A stretch of DNA of 45,594 nucleotides, taken from NCBI GenBank assembly GCA_001797365.1, contig MGPH01000058.1, positions 255 through 45,848 on the forward strand, read 5' to 3'. Positions within the stretch are counted from its first letter, which is position 1. Each line of letters begins with the position of its first letter. This DNA comes from Deltaproteobacteria bacterium GWA2_45_12. Lineage in GTDB: Bacteria; UBA10199. This document shows positions 8,632-37,366 of this stretch, one piece after another. A program made the position numbers and the translations under genes. The notes below the pieces were generated by a model. The model saw only the letters and a list, made by a program, of their open reading frames with translations. It had not been told where the DNA came from and searched no databases.

Positions 8632-9389
8632 AACCTCTTCCTCAATTTTCAAAAAAGGCGGTGCCCAACGCGTTGCATGAAGCGCTTCGGCTTTTGTTTA
8701 CGGGGTCCTGGACCGATGTGTGCTTGGTGGGAGGGACAGCTCTTGCGGGTGTCTATGCGGAGCATCGCAGATCGGATGACATTGATCTTTTTGCAACAAC
8801 CCCTTCTTCATTCACCGCCATGGTTCGGCAAACGGCGGGGCTTAAAAAACAGGGCGCCGTTTTTTCACAGGAGCTTTCAACGCCCCATTATTTCCATGCG
8901 GCCGTTGATTTCAAAAAACACCGTTTCACTTTGGACATTGTTCTCGATGAAAACTTAAAAAATTTGGGAGAGCCCTTTGTCACTGAGGAAGGTATTCCCG
9001 TCGCCAGATTGGAAACCCTTTTTTGCATGAAGGTGGCTTGTTTGGTGAGCCGATGTTCGGAAAAAGATTTATTCGATCTGGATTGGATTTTTTCAAAAAT
9101 AGGTTTTGTGGATGTAGCCACCTTGATTGAGTGTGGAAGAAAAATCGATGCGGGAGTAACTGCGGAATCTATGCTCATCAGTTTAAACGGGACTCTTTTG
9201 AAAAAAGAAGCCTGCCACTTTGCGCTTCCAGAAACAGGAGTAACAGTAGAGGAGGCTCACAAAAGAGTTTCCAAGTTACAGAAAAAGCTCATTCATGATT
9301 TTGGGGAATTTGAAAAAAAAGAAAAACCTTTATCCGAGATTCAATCTTTAAAGGATATGGCGTCGATTCAGAAAAAAATTTCCAAATAA
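8607..9389 (+). CDS. AbiEii-type nucleotidyltransferase (module B)
   Basis: A 260-residue nucleotidyltransferase-fold protein with VGGTALAGVYAEHRRSDDIDLF at 41-62, which includes the GG and SxDxD catalytic elements of AbiEii/AbiGii toxins. It overlaps the Xre gene upstream by 25 bases and, at its 3' end, the convergent TIGR02757 gene by about 22 bases. It is only distantly similar to the module A enzyme, so the two look like separate acquisitions rather than a recent tandem duplication. Expected activity: nucleotide transfer to RNA or protein, toxic when not held in check by the partner. This rests on the family, not on anything specific in this copy. Confidence 0.78.
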   Translation: MAALFKSIKPLPQFSKKAVPNALHEALRLLFTGSWTDVCLVGGTALAGVYAEHRRSDDIDLFATTPSSFTAMVRQTAGLKKQGAVFSQELSTPHYFHAAVDFKKHRFTLDIVLDENLKNLGEPFVTEEGIPVARLETLFCMKVACLVSRCSEKDLFDLDWIFSKIGFVDVATLIECGRKIDAGVTAESMLISLNGTLLKKEACHFALPETGVTVEEAHKRVSKLQKKLIHDFGEFEKKEKPLSEIQSLKDMASIQKKISK

Positions 9390-10225
9390 CCATAATCCAA
9401 TTCCGCCCGTATCCCCAACCTTGTCAGTGCAAAGTCGTATTTGACCGGGTCTTCCAGGGAGATTTGTTTAAATCGTTTAGTCATCTCAATGGCGGTTTGC
9501 AGGTTGGCTTGTTTGCGGCGCGTGAGTTTGAGTTTTCGACCCAGGGCAAACATGTGTGTGTCAATGGGAACAATGAGTTTGGAAGGGGAAAGATTCCAGC
9601 CGCCGGGATCGACGGCATCTTTTCGTATCATCCATCGTAAATACATCCACAATCGTTTGCAGGCACTGCCATCGGATGGGGAGGGAAGCAGGTTTTGGCG
9701 CATGTTTGGGGCCAATTTGCGGAGGGTTTGGACGAATCCCGCGAGGGCGGGGAGGTAGGAATTATCATCATTATTATTTTTGGAATGTCCGGGCGAACCT
9801 TGTGTTCGCCCATGCGGGGACGGGCGAACACAAGGTTCGCCCGTACAAGACACGAATAAATTCTTCAATCCCCCATGCAATTCAATCGCCTTCCCGCACG
9901 CCACCAACAATCCTGCAATATCTTCCCCCGTATGCCACCTGTGTTTGAAATTTTTGTAAATTTTTTGAAAATCCTTTTCCGACGTATTTGTAACAAAGGA
10001 AACAGGGTGGCCTTCCATGGGTTTCAAAATTTTTTCCACACTGACCAAAATCTGCTTCACATTGCCGTAGGCTAAGGAAGAGGCGATGAGCCCCACAATT
10101 TCACGGTCGGCGATTTTGTCGTACTCAAAAAGAAATTGAAGTGGATCGGGACTGACGTATTTGCGTTGGTTGAAACGGAAATAGAGATCTTCAAGCTGAT
10201 TAAATAAACGAGTTTGATCTTTCAT
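9368..10225 (-). CDS. TIGR02757 family (DUF2400) protein with internal palindromic insert
   Basis: A 285-residue member of the TIGR02757/DUF2400 family, cytoplasmic proteins of unknown function found in many bacteria. Family-like segments include FEYDKIADREIVGLIASSLAYGN near the N-terminus, KLIVPIDTHMFALG and a C-terminal SLEDPVKYDFALTRLGI; the last two resemble helix-hairpin DNA glycosylase-like folds, but no activity is established. Residues about 127-148 do not fit the family: they are the translation of a perfect inverted repeat (9791-9842) that leaves the frame open. The 3' end overlaps the convergent AbiEii gene. A second palindrome lies 15 bases before the start codon. Confidence 0.8.
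   Translation of the reverse strand: MKDQTRLFNQLEDLYFRFNQRKYVSPDPLQFLFEYDKIADREIVGLIASSLAYGNVKQILVSVEKILKPMEGHPVSFVTNTSEKDFQKIYKNFKHRWHTGEDIAGLLVACGKAIELHGGLKNLFVSCTGEPCVRPSPHGRTQGSPGHSKNNNDDNSYLPALAGFVQTLRKLAPNMRQNLLPSPSDGSACKRLWMYLRWMIRKDAVDPGGWNLSPSKLIVPIDTHMFALGRKLKLTRRKQANLQTAIEMTKRFKQISLEDPVKYDFALTRLGIRAELDYGYLEIFF
9791..9842. repeat. Perfect 21-bp inverted repeat inside the TIGR02757 gene
   Basis: The two arms (9791-9811 and 9822-9842) are exact reverse complements, each starting GGGCGAAC and ending TTCGCCC, separated by ten bases. It belongs with the GTAGGGGC-type repeats common in environmental bacteria. It is translated as part of the TIGR02757 protein without a stop. Confidence 0.95.
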
Positions 10226-10239
10226 GAATAACTATCCGC

Positions 10240-10267
10240 GTAAGGGCAATTCATGAATTGCCCTTAC
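10240..10267. repeat. 28-bp perfect palindrome, GTAAGGGCAATTC family, copy A
   Basis: The segment is a perfect 28-base palindrome with half-site GTAAGGGCAATTCA. It stands just upstream of the TIGR02757 start codon. The other copies are at 29796-29823 and 37119-37146. Exact identity between three separated copies points to a recently active or maintained element. Confidence 0.95.
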
Positions 10268-10373
10268 AAAAACCGGACACCCTGAGATTGTCCCGCACAC
10301 GGGGCATGTCCAATAAACTTCCAATAAACTTCTTTTGACTTCCTCAATTGATTTTGCTCATATCGCCACCAGC

Positions 10374-13391: not shown

Positions 13392-13405
13392 TCTCCTCCT
13401 CTTTT

Positions 13406-13521
13406 CCCCTTTAAAAAAGGGGGACTAAGGGGGATTTGTTCCCGTTCCCGCTTTGCCGTATCCGTTTCAATTCGGGGAGGGTACGGGGAAAATCCCCCTG
13501 TATCCCCCTTTTTTAAAGGGG
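13406..13521. repeat. Large inverted repeat, AAATCCCCCTGTATCCCCC family
   Basis: Arms of about 32 bases (13406-13437 and 13490-13521) are near-perfect reverse complements, built on CCCCTTTAAAAAAGGGGG and AAATCCCCCTGTATCCCCC, around a unique loop of about 52 bases. It fills the gap between the acyl-CoA dehydrogenase and the amidohydrolase. It could serve as a terminator for the first gene while its right end supplies the GGGGGAAGG ribosome binding site of the second. A closely related element lies inside tadA. Confidence 0.92.
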
Positions 13522-13528
13522 GAAGGAT

Positions 13529-25854: not shown

Positions 25855-26085
25855 ATGACGCAAGTAGGCACTATAAAACTGGTCCCTGCCCTTGGGCCTT
25901 GCCAACATCCCATCACTCCAGAGGAACAAAGAGTTTATGTGTTGGGAGCAGATAATCCATTTGAGATGTTTCAAAGATATACGGAAGTTATCATTGGGAA
26001 ATATCGTCCAAATGTATGTGCGCAAGAGGCGCAGAATGCAAGGGATAACGAATTCGATGACGGAGATGCGGAAAATCTAGATTAG
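25855..26085 (+). CDS. Small acidic protein of unknown function
   Basis: A 76-residue protein with an excellent ribosome binding site (AAAAGGAG, seven bases before the ATG), which is the main reason to believe it. It has two Cys (CQHP and VCAQ) and an acidic tail (NEFDDGDAENLD). There is no signal peptide, membrane segment or recognisable fold. A possible -10 (GATAAT) lies upstream near 25832-25837. Its neighbours give no hint: acs diverges from it and the decayed tadA fragment starts right at its stop codon. Confidence 0.6.
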   Translation: MTQVGTIKLVPALGPCQHPITPEEQRVYVLGADNPFEMFQRYTEVIIGKYRPNVCAQEAQNARDNEFDDGDAENLD

Positions 26086-26212
26086 GGACGCCTTTTTCCT
26101 TTAAAAAATTCCTGAAGCAAGGTCTGACATTGTCCCTCTAACAGACCTCCTCTAATCGCAATTGTGTGATTATTCCCATGGAGAGAATTTATTTCTTTGA
26201 GGGAGGGGAAAA
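26082..26212 (-). pseudogene. Decayed duplicate of the 3' end of tadA
   Basis: Read on the minus strand, about 42 residues (FPSLKEINSLHGNNHTIAIR then LLEGQCQTLLQEFFKGKRR) match the C-terminus of TadA at 27256-27400 (FFPSLKGIKSIHGNNHT, ILEKECAMILQEFFKQKRK). The catalytic part is absent. An 80-residue frame continues upstream to 26324 but its first part shows no TadA similarity. The 286-residue unknown gene lies between the fragment and the intact tadA. It looks like a remnant of a partial duplication. Confidence 0.8.
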
Positions 26213-26337
26213 TAAATTGAGGGGATGACCCTTCGATCACCGTGTAGCGGGATCCCGTGTGCGGGACATTGACGGGACAAAATAGAAGAAGGTTTGGATG
26301 ACACGACTTGAATTTATAGCACATTCAATAATGGGGT

Positions 26338-27198
26338 CTACACTTCATCCTTCTCCACAGGCTTTCGAGAACGTCTAATGGAGTCAGTGAGATCAGCAAG
26401 AGGTCCTAAAATAATCATCGGAAGCTCAACTACCAGGAACCAAAGCAATCCTGTTGGCAATTCTTTCAGCCAATTTCTTAAAGTGGATTTTCCAGACAAG
26501 TGTTTTATAGGGACGTAGTTTCTCGAAACACCGGGGTACAATGTGTATTTTAATTTCATAATTTTGTGGGTAAGAGAGTTGGAAGAAATGTCCAGGCCGA
26601 AAACCCGATGGGTGTCTGTTTCAGAAATAGAGGAAGGAACACGATGTAAGATCTCAGGGAAGGGAGCTAGAGAATCAAATTCTAATACAGGGAAATTATC
26701 CAACGGTTCTTGCATGAAGTATCCAGAAAAAACATCTTTCGCATTGTGGAGCGCTTCGGAAATGAGATGATAGATTGTTCGCAAATACCGTGATTTTTTT
26801 GTAGAAGGATTCTCTAAACATCTATCGATAAGGCTTTGCAAGCGTTGCAGCTCTGTAATTATTTCCCAAAGAGCTGTTTCATGGGGGTCAGGTTGATTAG
26901 GAATGATGTTCGCTGTACTGAGTCGTTTGGGGGAGGTGAGCCTTGAAAGAGCATAATGGACTCCGGTGAGCATATGGTCTTGCTGTAACAGTGGCGCTTC
27001 GTGATCCATTGTCGGGCTGTCGATGATGACCTCGGGCTCTTCATAAACTCTTCCTGCCGTTATTTTCTGTAGTTGTCGATATTGGGCCCATTGCTGCACC
27101 GGTGCCGATACATGACCCCATCTTCTTTGAAGGGCGGCACCCATGCGAGCGACCCCAAAGGAGTGTATTCTACCTATATTCGGAATTCTAAAATTCAT
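26338..27198 (-). CDS. Unknown protein with C-terminal membrane segment
   Basis: A 286-residue protein I do not recognise. The N-terminal half is soluble-looking and rich in Arg, Gln and His. Around 100-160 there are amphipathic helices (ETALWEIITELQRLQSLIDRCL). A single hydrophobic stretch near the end (LLWFLVVELPMIILGPLADL) is a probable membrane anchor, followed by a short charged tail. The start has no obvious ribosome binding site; a TTTCGCGAAA palindrome lies about 30 bases upstream. It separates the tadA fragment from intact tadA, so it may have arrived with the rearrangement. Similar loosely structured proteins with Pro-rich stretches occur at 28687 and 29106 but no clear homology is visible. 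Confidence 0.6.
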   Translation of the reverse strand: MNFRIPNIGRIHSFGVARMGAALQRRWGHVSAPVQQWAQYRQLQKITAGRVYEEPEVIIDSPTMDHEAPLLQQDHMLTGVHYALSRLTSPKRLSTANIIPNQPDPHETALWEIITELQRLQSLIDRCLENPSTKKSRYLRTIYHLISEALHNAKDVFSGYFMQEPLDNFPVLEFDSLAPFPEILHRVPSSISETDTHRVFGLDISSNSLTHKIMKLKYTLYPGVSRNYVPIKHLSGKSTLRNWLKELPTGLLWFLVVELPMIILGPLADLTDSIRRSRKPVEKDEV

Positions 27199-27255: not shown

Positions 27256-27873
27256 TTATACGGTCTTTTTTAGTTTAAAGTGTGAGGTTTTACGCTTCTG
27301 CTTAAAAAATTCCTGAAGAATCATAGCGCACTCTTTCTCGAGAATGCTGCCGATAATTTGAAGCGTATGGTTATTTCCGTGGATGGATTTTATTCCTTTG
27401 AGAGAGGGGAAAAATCCCCCTGTATCCCCCTTTTGTAAAGGGGGAAATAAAGAGGGGAGCTCGATTTGTCCCCCTTTACAAAAGGGGGATACAGGGGGAT
27501 TTTCTCCCGTATCACTCTGCCTCTTCGGATCCGCACACCCAAACACCAAGGTCCCCACGCGCGCCTGAAGAAGGGCGCCCAAGCACATGGGGCAGGGTTC
27601 CAAGGTGACATAGAGAGTGGTGTTGGTAAGCCGCCAATCTTTTTTCTTTTTCCCCGCTTTGGTAAGCACGATCATTTCAGCATGGTGGAGCGGATTACGC
27701 GTCTTCTGCCGCGTGTTATAAGCACGAGCAATAATTTTTCCATCTTCCACTAAAACAGCCCCAATGGGAATTTCACCGGCATCGAAGGCCTTTTGGGCTT
27801 CTTTGAGGGCTTGTTGCATGAAAAATTCGTGACGAGGTTTTTGAATATCCATTGGCTTAAAAAAAGGGGTCAT
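27256..27873 (-). CDS. tadA: tRNA-specific adenosine deaminase with palindromic insert
   Basis: A 205-residue zinc deaminase that converts A34 to inosine in tRNA-Arg(ACG). The zinc/catalytic HAE is at 64-66 and PCPMC at 93-97, both intact. Residues about 124-153 (from ENPPVSPFCKGG to QKGDTGG) are not family sequence: they translate a 91-base inverted repeat (27412-27502). They lie after the catalytic core, before the C-terminal helix region, where an insert is most likely tolerated. Without them the length is about 175, normal for TadA. The ATG overlaps the stop of ogt by four bases (ATGA), so the two are coupled; Met8 (27852) is an alternative start. A decayed duplicate of the 3' end lies 1 kb away. 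Confidence 0.93.
   Translation of the reverse strand: MTPFFKPMDIQKPRHEFFMQQALKEAQKAFDAGEIPIGAVLVEDGKIIARAYNTRQKTRNPLHHAEMIVLTKAGKKKKDWRLTNTTLYVTLEPCPMCLGALLQARVGTLVFGCADPKRQSDTGENPPVSPFCKGGQIELPSLFPPLQKGDTGGFFPSLKGIKSIHGNNHTLQIIGSILEKECAMILQEFFKQKRKTSHFKLKKTV
27412..27502. repeat. Perfect 33-bp inverted repeat inside tadA
   Basis: Arms 27412-27444 and 27470-27502 are exact reverse complements, starting AAATCCCCCTGTATCCCCC and ending in the TTTTGTAAAGGGGG region. The loop is 25 bases. The element is nearly the same as the one at 13406-13521 and is translated without a stop. Confidence 0.96.
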
Positions 27874-28445
27874 CCTACTTTAATGTTTTCTATGGCCAGT
27901 AATTTTTTCTTAATACCCACTCCACAGCTATACCCCCCAATCCCTCCATTCGCCGCGATCACGCGGTGGCAGGGGATGATGATGGGCAGGGGGTTTTTTC
28001 CATTCGCATTGCCCACGGCGCGTGCGGCTTTGGGGAGCTTCACTTTTTGGGCCAGCGTCTTATAGCTGATCGCTTTTCCATAAGGAATCTTCCACAATTG
28101 CTTCCACACTTTTTTTTGAAAGCTTGTTCCAAAGGGCAAATCAATTAACTCCCACGGAAAAGGTTTATTTGACCCTTTGAAATAGGCATCAAGCCAACAA
28201 TTTATTTTAGTTTTTAAATCCCCCTTACGTCCCCCTTTTCGGCCAGAGGCTGATCCGCCTTTGGCGGAAATAAAGGGGGAAAGAGGGGGATTTTTCGTAG
28301 GGGCGCGGTTTCCGCGCCCTGGGCGGGGAAACTCAGCCCTTATAAAGGAAATTTTCTGGATTCCATGCCCTGAAATCTGAATTTTTAAGGCTCCTATAGG
28401 CGATGCATATTCATAAAATAAAAAAGGAGACGTTTTTGTAGGCAT
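27870..28445 (-). CDS. ogt: Methylated-DNA--protein-cysteine methyltransferase with palindromic inserts
   Basis: A 191-residue suicide repair enzyme that takes the alkyl group from O6-methylguanine. The active-site PCHRV is at 158-162, preceded by the helix-turn-helix region (YKTLAQKVKLPKAARAVGNANGKNP) and followed by NGGIGGYSCG. Residues about 40-77 are foreign to the family: RPGRGNRAPT and PPLSPFISAKGGSASGRKGG come from two adjacent palindromic elements (28216-28293 and around 28296-28326). The catalytic C-terminal domain is untouched. ATG 28445 with AAGGTG upstream is chosen over TTG 28463. It overlaps tadA by four bases; the two form an operon. Confidence 0.92.
   Translation of the reverse strand: MPTKTSPFLFYEYASPIGALKIQISGHGIQKISFIRAEFPRPGRGNRAPTKNPPLSPFISAKGGSASGRKGGRKGDLKTKINCWLDAYFKGSNKPFPWELIDLPFGTSFQKKVWKQLWKIPYGKAISYKTLAQKVKLPKAARAVGNANGKNPLPIIIPCHRVIAANGGIGGYSCGVGIKKKLLAIENIKVG
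28216..28326. repeat. Two adjacent palindromic elements inside ogt
   Basis: The first (28216-28293) has opposed arms AAATCCCCCTTACGTCCCCC and GGGGGAAAGAGGGGGATTT, with an internal CCGCCTTTGGCGG hairpin. The second contains GGGCGCGG-ttt-CCGCGCCC (28301-28319) preceded by GTAGG, a GTAGGGGCGC-type element like that in the delta-60 gene. Both are read through in frame. Confidence 0.9.
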
Positions 28446-29786: not shown

Positions 29787-29823
29787 GGGCAATTCGTAAG
29801 GGCAATTCATGAATTGCCCTTAC
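29783..29823. repeat. GTAAGGGCAATTC palindrome, copy B with extra half-unit
   Basis: A full 28-base palindrome (29796-29823) is preceded by a single half-unit (GTAAGGGCAATTC, 29783-29795). The half-unit supplies the stop codon of the upstream gene, and the hairpin separates it from comEC, where it might reduce read-through. Confidence 0.95.
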
Positions 29824-29849
29824 ATGGCCCTTTATGATACCCCGCCTCC

Positions 29850-37103: not shown

Positions 37104-37146
37104 GTAGGGGCAATTCCGGTAAGGGCAATTCATGAATTGCCCTTAC
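37104..37146. repeat. GTAAGGGCAATTC palindrome, copy C with extra half-unit
   Basis: A full 28-base palindrome (37119-37146) preceded by a variant half-unit (GTAGGGGCAATTCC, 37104-37117). The same full-plus-half layout is seen at 29783-29823. It contains the stop codon and last four sense codons of the PP0621-like gene. Confidence 0.95.
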
Positions 37147-37366
37147 ACGTTTTTTTAAAACATTCCTCACTGCAAAAATATTTTCGATCCTTTGCATACG
37201 CCTGTTTTTGTGGATTATAAACACCGCAAGCGGGACAGGCAATCATTGTGTCTAAAATTTTTTTAGAAGATTCTTGGGTTCCAGATGGTGTTAGTTTTTG
37301 TCGAAAAAGAAACTTAAACAAAAAATAACATAAAAGAAATAATAGAATTAATCTGAACAAACCCAT
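37130..37366 (-). CDS. PP0621-like small membrane-anchored Cys protein
   Basis: A 78-residue protein with an N-terminal membrane helix (FRLILLFLLCYFLFKFLF) and a C-terminal Cys-rich knuckle: CPACGVYNP, then YFCSEECFKKTC. It fits the PP0621 family of small bacterial proteins, whose function is not known; the Cys pattern suggests zinc binding. The ATG follows the recR stop with no gap, so it is the fourth gene of the dnaX-ybaB-recR operon. The last four codons and the TGA come from a palindromic repeat, so the original C-terminus was probably different. Confidence 0.72.
   Translation of the reverse strand: MGLFRLILLFLLCYFLFKFLFRQKLTPSGTQESSKKILDTMIACPACGVYNPQKQAYAKDRKYFCSEECFKKTCKGNS

Follow-up and report, generated by a model that had tools for sequence, protein, structure and literature searches.

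A dispersed palindromic repeat carried in frame within the tRNA deaminase gene tadA of a deltaproteobacterium

Rickettsia palindromic elements (RPE) are dispersed palindromes of ~150 bp, found inserted in frame in housekeeping genes that are unrelated to one another (Ogata et al. 2000, 2002; reviewed in PMC10969869). They are known from Rickettsia, and their insertions are predicted to be compatible with the fold and function of the proteins that carry them (PMC10969869). GTAG/CGTC REPs are palindromes of 20-40 bp that occur singly or as inverted dimers, mostly between genes; some of them lie in frame in open reading frames (ORFs), including genes of DNA and RNA metabolism, and the dimers encode 20-30 amino acids (PMC3733652). 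The enterobacterial repeat units RU-1/2/3 are MITE-like elements of 103-168 bp with open frames, which are found fused in frame in genes (PMC2759123). The TMECO intrastrand triplex motif consists of a C-rich stem, a short loop, a G-rich stem, a loop of ~3 nt and a second G-rich stem. It is dispersed, GC-rich and patchily distributed between relatives, and in E. coli K-12 has no copies inside genes (PMC4666352).

Here we analyze a stretch of 45,594 nt from Deltaproteobacteria bacterium GWA2_45_12 (the window), in which the gene for the tRNA adenosine-34 deaminase, tadA, carries a palindrome within its reading frame (Table 1). This insert is very probably DNA of a repeat that we name REP1, inserted in a tolerant loop and translated as disordered residues of a TadA that still works.

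The inverted repeat and the TadA protein

The first-pass annotation had described a 33-bp inverted repeat inside tadA. The repeat is real and exact, but its arms are 35 bp long; with degenerate flanks the palindrome extends over 27406-27508, with 49-nt arms that match at 88%. The number of exact 35-bp pairs expected by chance is ~45,594 × 100 × 4^-35 (our own arithmetic), and a chance origin is excluded. Folded as RNA, the repeat reaches -89.3 kcal/mol (z = -9.2; 0/200 shuffles). An Rfam search of the window returned only the small SRP RNA, and a terminator scan gave nothing at the insert. The arm recurs in an intergenic element, previously placed at 13406-13521 and called near-identical. Its arm does match that of tadA (95% over 40 nt), but the arms stand in the opposite order, L..R instead of R..L, so that the near-identity holds for the arms only and the two are not the same element.

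Table 1 Features of the window and sites of REP1 in reading frames
Feature	Position or source	Strand	Remark
tadA, tRNA adenosine-34 deaminase, 205 aa	27256..27873	-	REP1 in conserved ORF; insert at ~residues 121-155
Palindromic element in tadA	27411..27503	.	two exact 35-bp arms, R..L order, 23-nt spacer
R arm AAAATCCCCCTGTATCCCCCTTTTGTAAAGGGGGA	27411..27445	+	tail, then inner 9-bp hairpin
Spacer between the arms, 23 nt	27446-27468
L arm	27469..27503	-	exact reverse complement of R arm
Second tadA 3'-end fragment	26085..26214	-	FPSLK...GNNHT...QEFFK
Nested palindrome GACCCTTCGATCACCGTGTAGCGGGATCCCGTGTGCGGGA	26229..26266	.	just upstream of tadA fragment
Intergenic element of REP1 family	13404..13524	.	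L..R arm order
ogt (MGMT), 197 aa	27870..28463	-	in-frame palindromic insert, absent from relatives; adjoins tadA
ogt insert	28215..28296	.	REP1-family arms; second palindrome TCCGCCTTTGGCGGA in hairpin loop
GTAG-type palindrome	28298-28320		after ogt REP1-variant insert
Palindrome of another family GGGCGAACACAAGGTTCGCCC	9774..9859	.	in frame in TIGR02757/DUF2400 gene 9368-10225(-)
RlmD-like uracil methyltransferase	L029		REP1 in conserved ORF
YgfZ/GcvT-like gene	L037		REP1 in conserved ORF
PMT_2 membrane protein	L043		REP1 in conserved ORF; Pfam match on N-terminal side only
Amidohydrolase	L038		REP1 in conserved ORF; Pfam match on N-terminal side only; locus sequence covered except for one stretch
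MobA-like protein	Nitrospirae		REP1 in frame; Pfam match spans insert
KdsB-like protein	Nitrospiria		REP1 in frame; Pfam match spans insert
T9SS sorting tail	Ignavibacteria		REP1 in frame; Pfam match spans insert
MalT-like TPR protein	Thiothrix caldifontis, cultured isolate		REP1 in frame; insert at end of TPR match
NuoL-like protein	Geotalea toluenoxydans, cultured isolate		REP1 in frame, judged from the surrounding sequence of a protein with an antiporter domain match

The reading frame of tadA is uninterrupted through the whole repeat, with neither stop nor frameshift, and four of the six possible frames of the insert contain no stop. The palindrome-encoded insert reads NPPVSPFCKGGQIELPSLFPPLQKGDTGGF and includes the stretch IELPSLFPPLQK. 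Alignment places its ~30 extra residues between the zinc motifs, which are intact (H64-A-E66 and P93-C94-x-x-C97), and the C-terminal helix, as proposed in the first-pass annotation. None of the 29 related TadA proteins in the alignment has the repeat-encoded residues, and all 22 invariant columns, among them H64, E66, C94 and C97, are kept. The protein scores 148.6 bits against the NCBIfam equivalog PRK10860.1, just below the cut-off of 150; it is assigned to TadA by its HAE...PCxxC zinc motifs together with homology over the core and the C-terminal helix. A TadA-like match was found in 59 of the 60 genomes searched.

The nearest genomes compared are of the same order, and the boundaries given for the insert are approximate. 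Their TadA proteins keep DPKR before the loop and FPSL...GNNHT...FF..KR after it. The spacing from KR to FPSL is 36 residues in our protein versus 5-18 in same-order TadAs, the exceptions being L048 and L051, each with a longer loop of its own. Since this spacing differs among the relatives, the element occupies a loop that was already variable in length. An AlphaFold model (30 sequences) has a pLDDT of ~98 for the core and below 50 at insert residues 125-133, 141-146 and 150-152; after the insert, the final strand and helix are again modelled with confidence (94-97). TadA structures are the best PDB matches of the model in Foldseek.

One recognizable tadA is present in the genome, which is 95% complete and comprises 2.46 Mb in 68 contigs. 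Two other deaminase-like matches resemble by motif a guanine deaminase of the GuaD type (C64) and a cytosine-deaminase type with HGE/PCDMC (C7), and were not counted as tadA. The genome has 40 tRNA genes, several of which were not individually read, and a gene for tRNA-Arg with anticodon ACG, the substrate for A34-to-I34 editing, was found. Because tadA is single and this tRNA is present, the product with the insert is probably used. The invariant catalytic residues and the confident predicted fold likewise point to a TadA that is probably functional and would edit tRNA-Arg(ACG), in line with the earlier expectation that the product works.

Two other readings of the open frame have to be weighed. 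If tadA were in the course of loss, the insert would disable the enzyme and the frame would be a recent relic. The insert is indeed large and adjoins the C-terminal segment, and tadA is followed by an ORF of unknown nature and by the fragment of a second tadA 3' end. The lack of any stop or frameshift, the conservation of the invariant columns and the confident fold argue against such decay, as does the want of another tadA in a nearly complete genome whose tRNA-Arg(ACG) needs TadA, and we consider loss very improbable. It is also conceivable that the protein lacks these residues, because the ribosome bypasses the long hairpin or the insert is removed from the RNA. Very stable hairpins are the kind of structure present at known bypass sites, and at -89 kcal/mol this one is extremely stable. 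However, the frame is open across the entire insert, so that no bypass is needed, and neither a splice nor a frameshift is required for read-through; copies of the family moreover keep the frame in a number of unrelated genes, across several phyla. Absence of the residues from the protein is thus very improbable, and we take the insert to be probably translated, as a loop of a TadA that probably works.

REP1 and other palindromes in this genome

The palindrome in tadA is a copy of REP1 with two arms; REP1 is a dispersed element of the REP-like kind, with the arm AAATCCCCCTnnnTCCCCCTTTnnnAAAGGGGGA. Its inner hairpin, CCCCCTTT-n-AAAGGGGG, occurs as 63 exact units in the genome, versus 0 for the reversed-pattern control. 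A third tract, AAATCCCCC or GGGGGATTT, stands on one side of the unit (L or R) or on both. Neighboring arm pairs are inverted in all 17 cases, 11 of them L..R (one with its arms 600 bp apart) and 6 R..L, and the flanks of ~50 units have AAAT/ATTT tails.

REP1 copies lie mostly between genes. Five of the 38 sites fetched are well within conserved ORFs (Table 1); with ~92% of the window covered by genes, so few sites inside them mean that copies in genes are strongly depleted (binomial p ~4e-31, taking the sites as independent and the gene coverage of the window for that of the genome). Six ORFs with an N-terminal element (murC L042, pheS-like L020, L030, L035, L039 and L041) were not counted, as their translation may start downstream, and L040:10031 was dropped as a site without an arm tail. 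No intragenic REP1 was found among the 15 loci read in genome G006.

RlmD-like genes of two genera, in this genome (G000, L029:2986-3096) and in G003 (L255:2008-2094), have REP1 arms in the same loop. Their arrangements differ, which suggests that REP1 entered one tolerant loop independently in the two genomes. In the YgfZ-like gene REP1 occupies the place of a longer stretch in relatives, and therefore seems to have replaced sequence there.

Judged from the reading frames, palindromic in-frame insertion affects at least two more genes of the window besides tadA, namely ogt and the TIGR02757 gene. The palindrome in the latter is unrelated to REP1 and absent from relatives; the G018 ortholog of this gene carries a REP1 copy slightly further downstream. 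Three near-identical 30-nt palindromes, CGTAAGGGCAATTCATGAATTGCCCTTACA, at 10239-10268, 29795-29824 and 37118-37147 belong to another dispersed family.

The second 3' end of tadA had been taken for a decayed duplicate that passes the corresponding point without the repeat, and the insertion for the younger event. The DNA that the fragment shares with tadA extends only from the edge of the repeat downstream. Its upstream side has no homology to the upstream flank of tadA (score 16 versus a shuffle mean of 16.8, p = 0.65), and the palindrome at 26229-26266 begins ~15 nt further upstream, beyond the end of the homology. Since the homology ends at the edge of the repeat and another palindrome lies nearby, the order of insertion and duplication is not readable from the fragment, and the duplicate lends no support to the proposed dating.

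The palindrome next to the fragment (31 nt, CACCGYGTAGCGGGATCCCGTnTGCGGGA; L322-L331) has 10 exact copies in the genome. Five occupy the loops of hairpins that resemble REP1, CCCCCTTT...AAAGGGGGG, as hairpins nested in hairpin loops, while the other five, including that at 26229-26266, come after CCTTCGAT sequence belonging to another repeat. Between tadA and its second 3' end lies an ORF of 286 aa (26338-27198, minus strand) with no Pfam match, placed as if something had integrated at the end of tadA.

Spread and mobilization of REP1

The hairpin is found in 17 of 46 genomes of the class, in a patchy distribution of 1 to 242 copies with genome-typical loop triplets. A degenerate pattern of the arm, in which 28 bases are fixed, matched at least 120 stretches of named genomes, where ~1e-5 matches would be expected by chance (our own arithmetic), and the 80 matches listed fall into ~17 phylum-level groups. 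Many of the carriers are metagenome-assembled genomes (MAGs), and isolates are also included. An exact 34-mer of the tadA arm had no match in GTDB genomes.

The in-frame cases in other phyla (Table 1) also bear on whether the repeat in tadA is an artefact of metagenome assembly. Assemblers can be misled by dispersed repeats, and this genome consists of 68 contigs. Against a misjoin, the reading frame is preserved exactly and the sequence on either side of the insert aligns with TadA orthologs; conserved genes of other genomes, among them two isolates, Geotalea toluenoxydans and Thiothrix caldifontis, also carry the family in frame; a misjoin is accordingly highly unlikely, and we retain an insertion present in the gene itself.

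Such an insertion would have been made as DNA, by a hairpin-acting enzyme or by templated copying, in the TadA loop that links the deaminase core to the terminal strand and helix. Most REP1 insertions into genes would be eliminated; the tadA copy may have survived as an in-frame, stop-free sequence in a tolerant loop. The ribosome would then read REP1 as ~30 disordered residues, and TadA would still edit tRNA-Arg(ACG). Most likely REP1 is without function in the TadA protein and represents tolerated selfish or by-product DNA.

As for the mobilizing enzyme, no REP1 was found beside those PF01797 (Y1 transposase) genes that were sampled from this genome and from 18 related ones. REP1 copy number shows no correlation with Y1 transposases (rho -0.19, p = 0.45). 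With neither adjacency at the sampled genes nor correlation, we rejected a Y1 transposase as the mobilizer of REP1. One Y1 (RAYT-like) transposase gene (L046:3419-3883, minus strand) itself has GTAG-type palindromes in frame. Another, in this genome (L045:1060-1846, contig C33), is flanked by two AAGGGGACCCCTT-type hairpins; the small contig C33 may be foreign to the genome.

More tentatively, REP1 could be one cross-phylum family, moved by an enzyme yet unlinked to it, that keeps adding in-frame loop insertions, on a wide scale, to housekeeping proteins of bacteria distant from Rickettsia, a reading that we find rather doubtful. If it were true, REP1 would owe its persistence in genes partly to a sequence that is open in four of the six frames.

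Comparison with known palindromic elements

Like RPE, REP1 is a short dispersed palindrome through which the frame stays open in conserved genes, where it would be translated. By description, its units are shorter and occur in ~17 phylum-level groups. REP1 shares with GTAG/CGTC REPs the occurrence as singles and inverted dimers, but differs in lacking either tag at the arm ends, as read from the flanks of ~50 units, and in not standing beside the sampled Y1 transposases. The layout of the REP1 arm, TCCCCCTTT-nnn-AAAGGGGGA-nn-AGGGGGATTT, fits by inspection the pyrimidine stem, loop, purine stem, loop and second purine stem of purine-motif intrastrand triplexes such as TMECO. In contrast, the TMECO consensus CCCTCNCCC...GGGNGAGGG...GGGNGAGGG is not matched by the arm, and REP1 also lies inside genes. 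RU-1/2/3 are likewise open-framed and in frame in genes, but are elements of 103-168 bp from enterobacteria.

In-frame palindromes are already established from Rickettsia, GTAG/CGTC REPs and enterobacterial RUs; searches with the arm sequence and its 9-mers did not recover the REP1 family from the open literature, whose searchable part is incomplete. It provides natural examples of insertion in conserved enzymes (TadA, MGMT, RlmD-like, MobA-like, KdsB-like and NuoL-like), and gives annotators a signature of repeat-derived residues: NPPxSPFxKGG, PPLxKGD and IPLxPPFxKGE. In-frame insertion of palindromes, described from Rickettsia, from some REP-rich proteobacteria and from enterobacteria, would with REP1 extend to a repeat family of many phyla.
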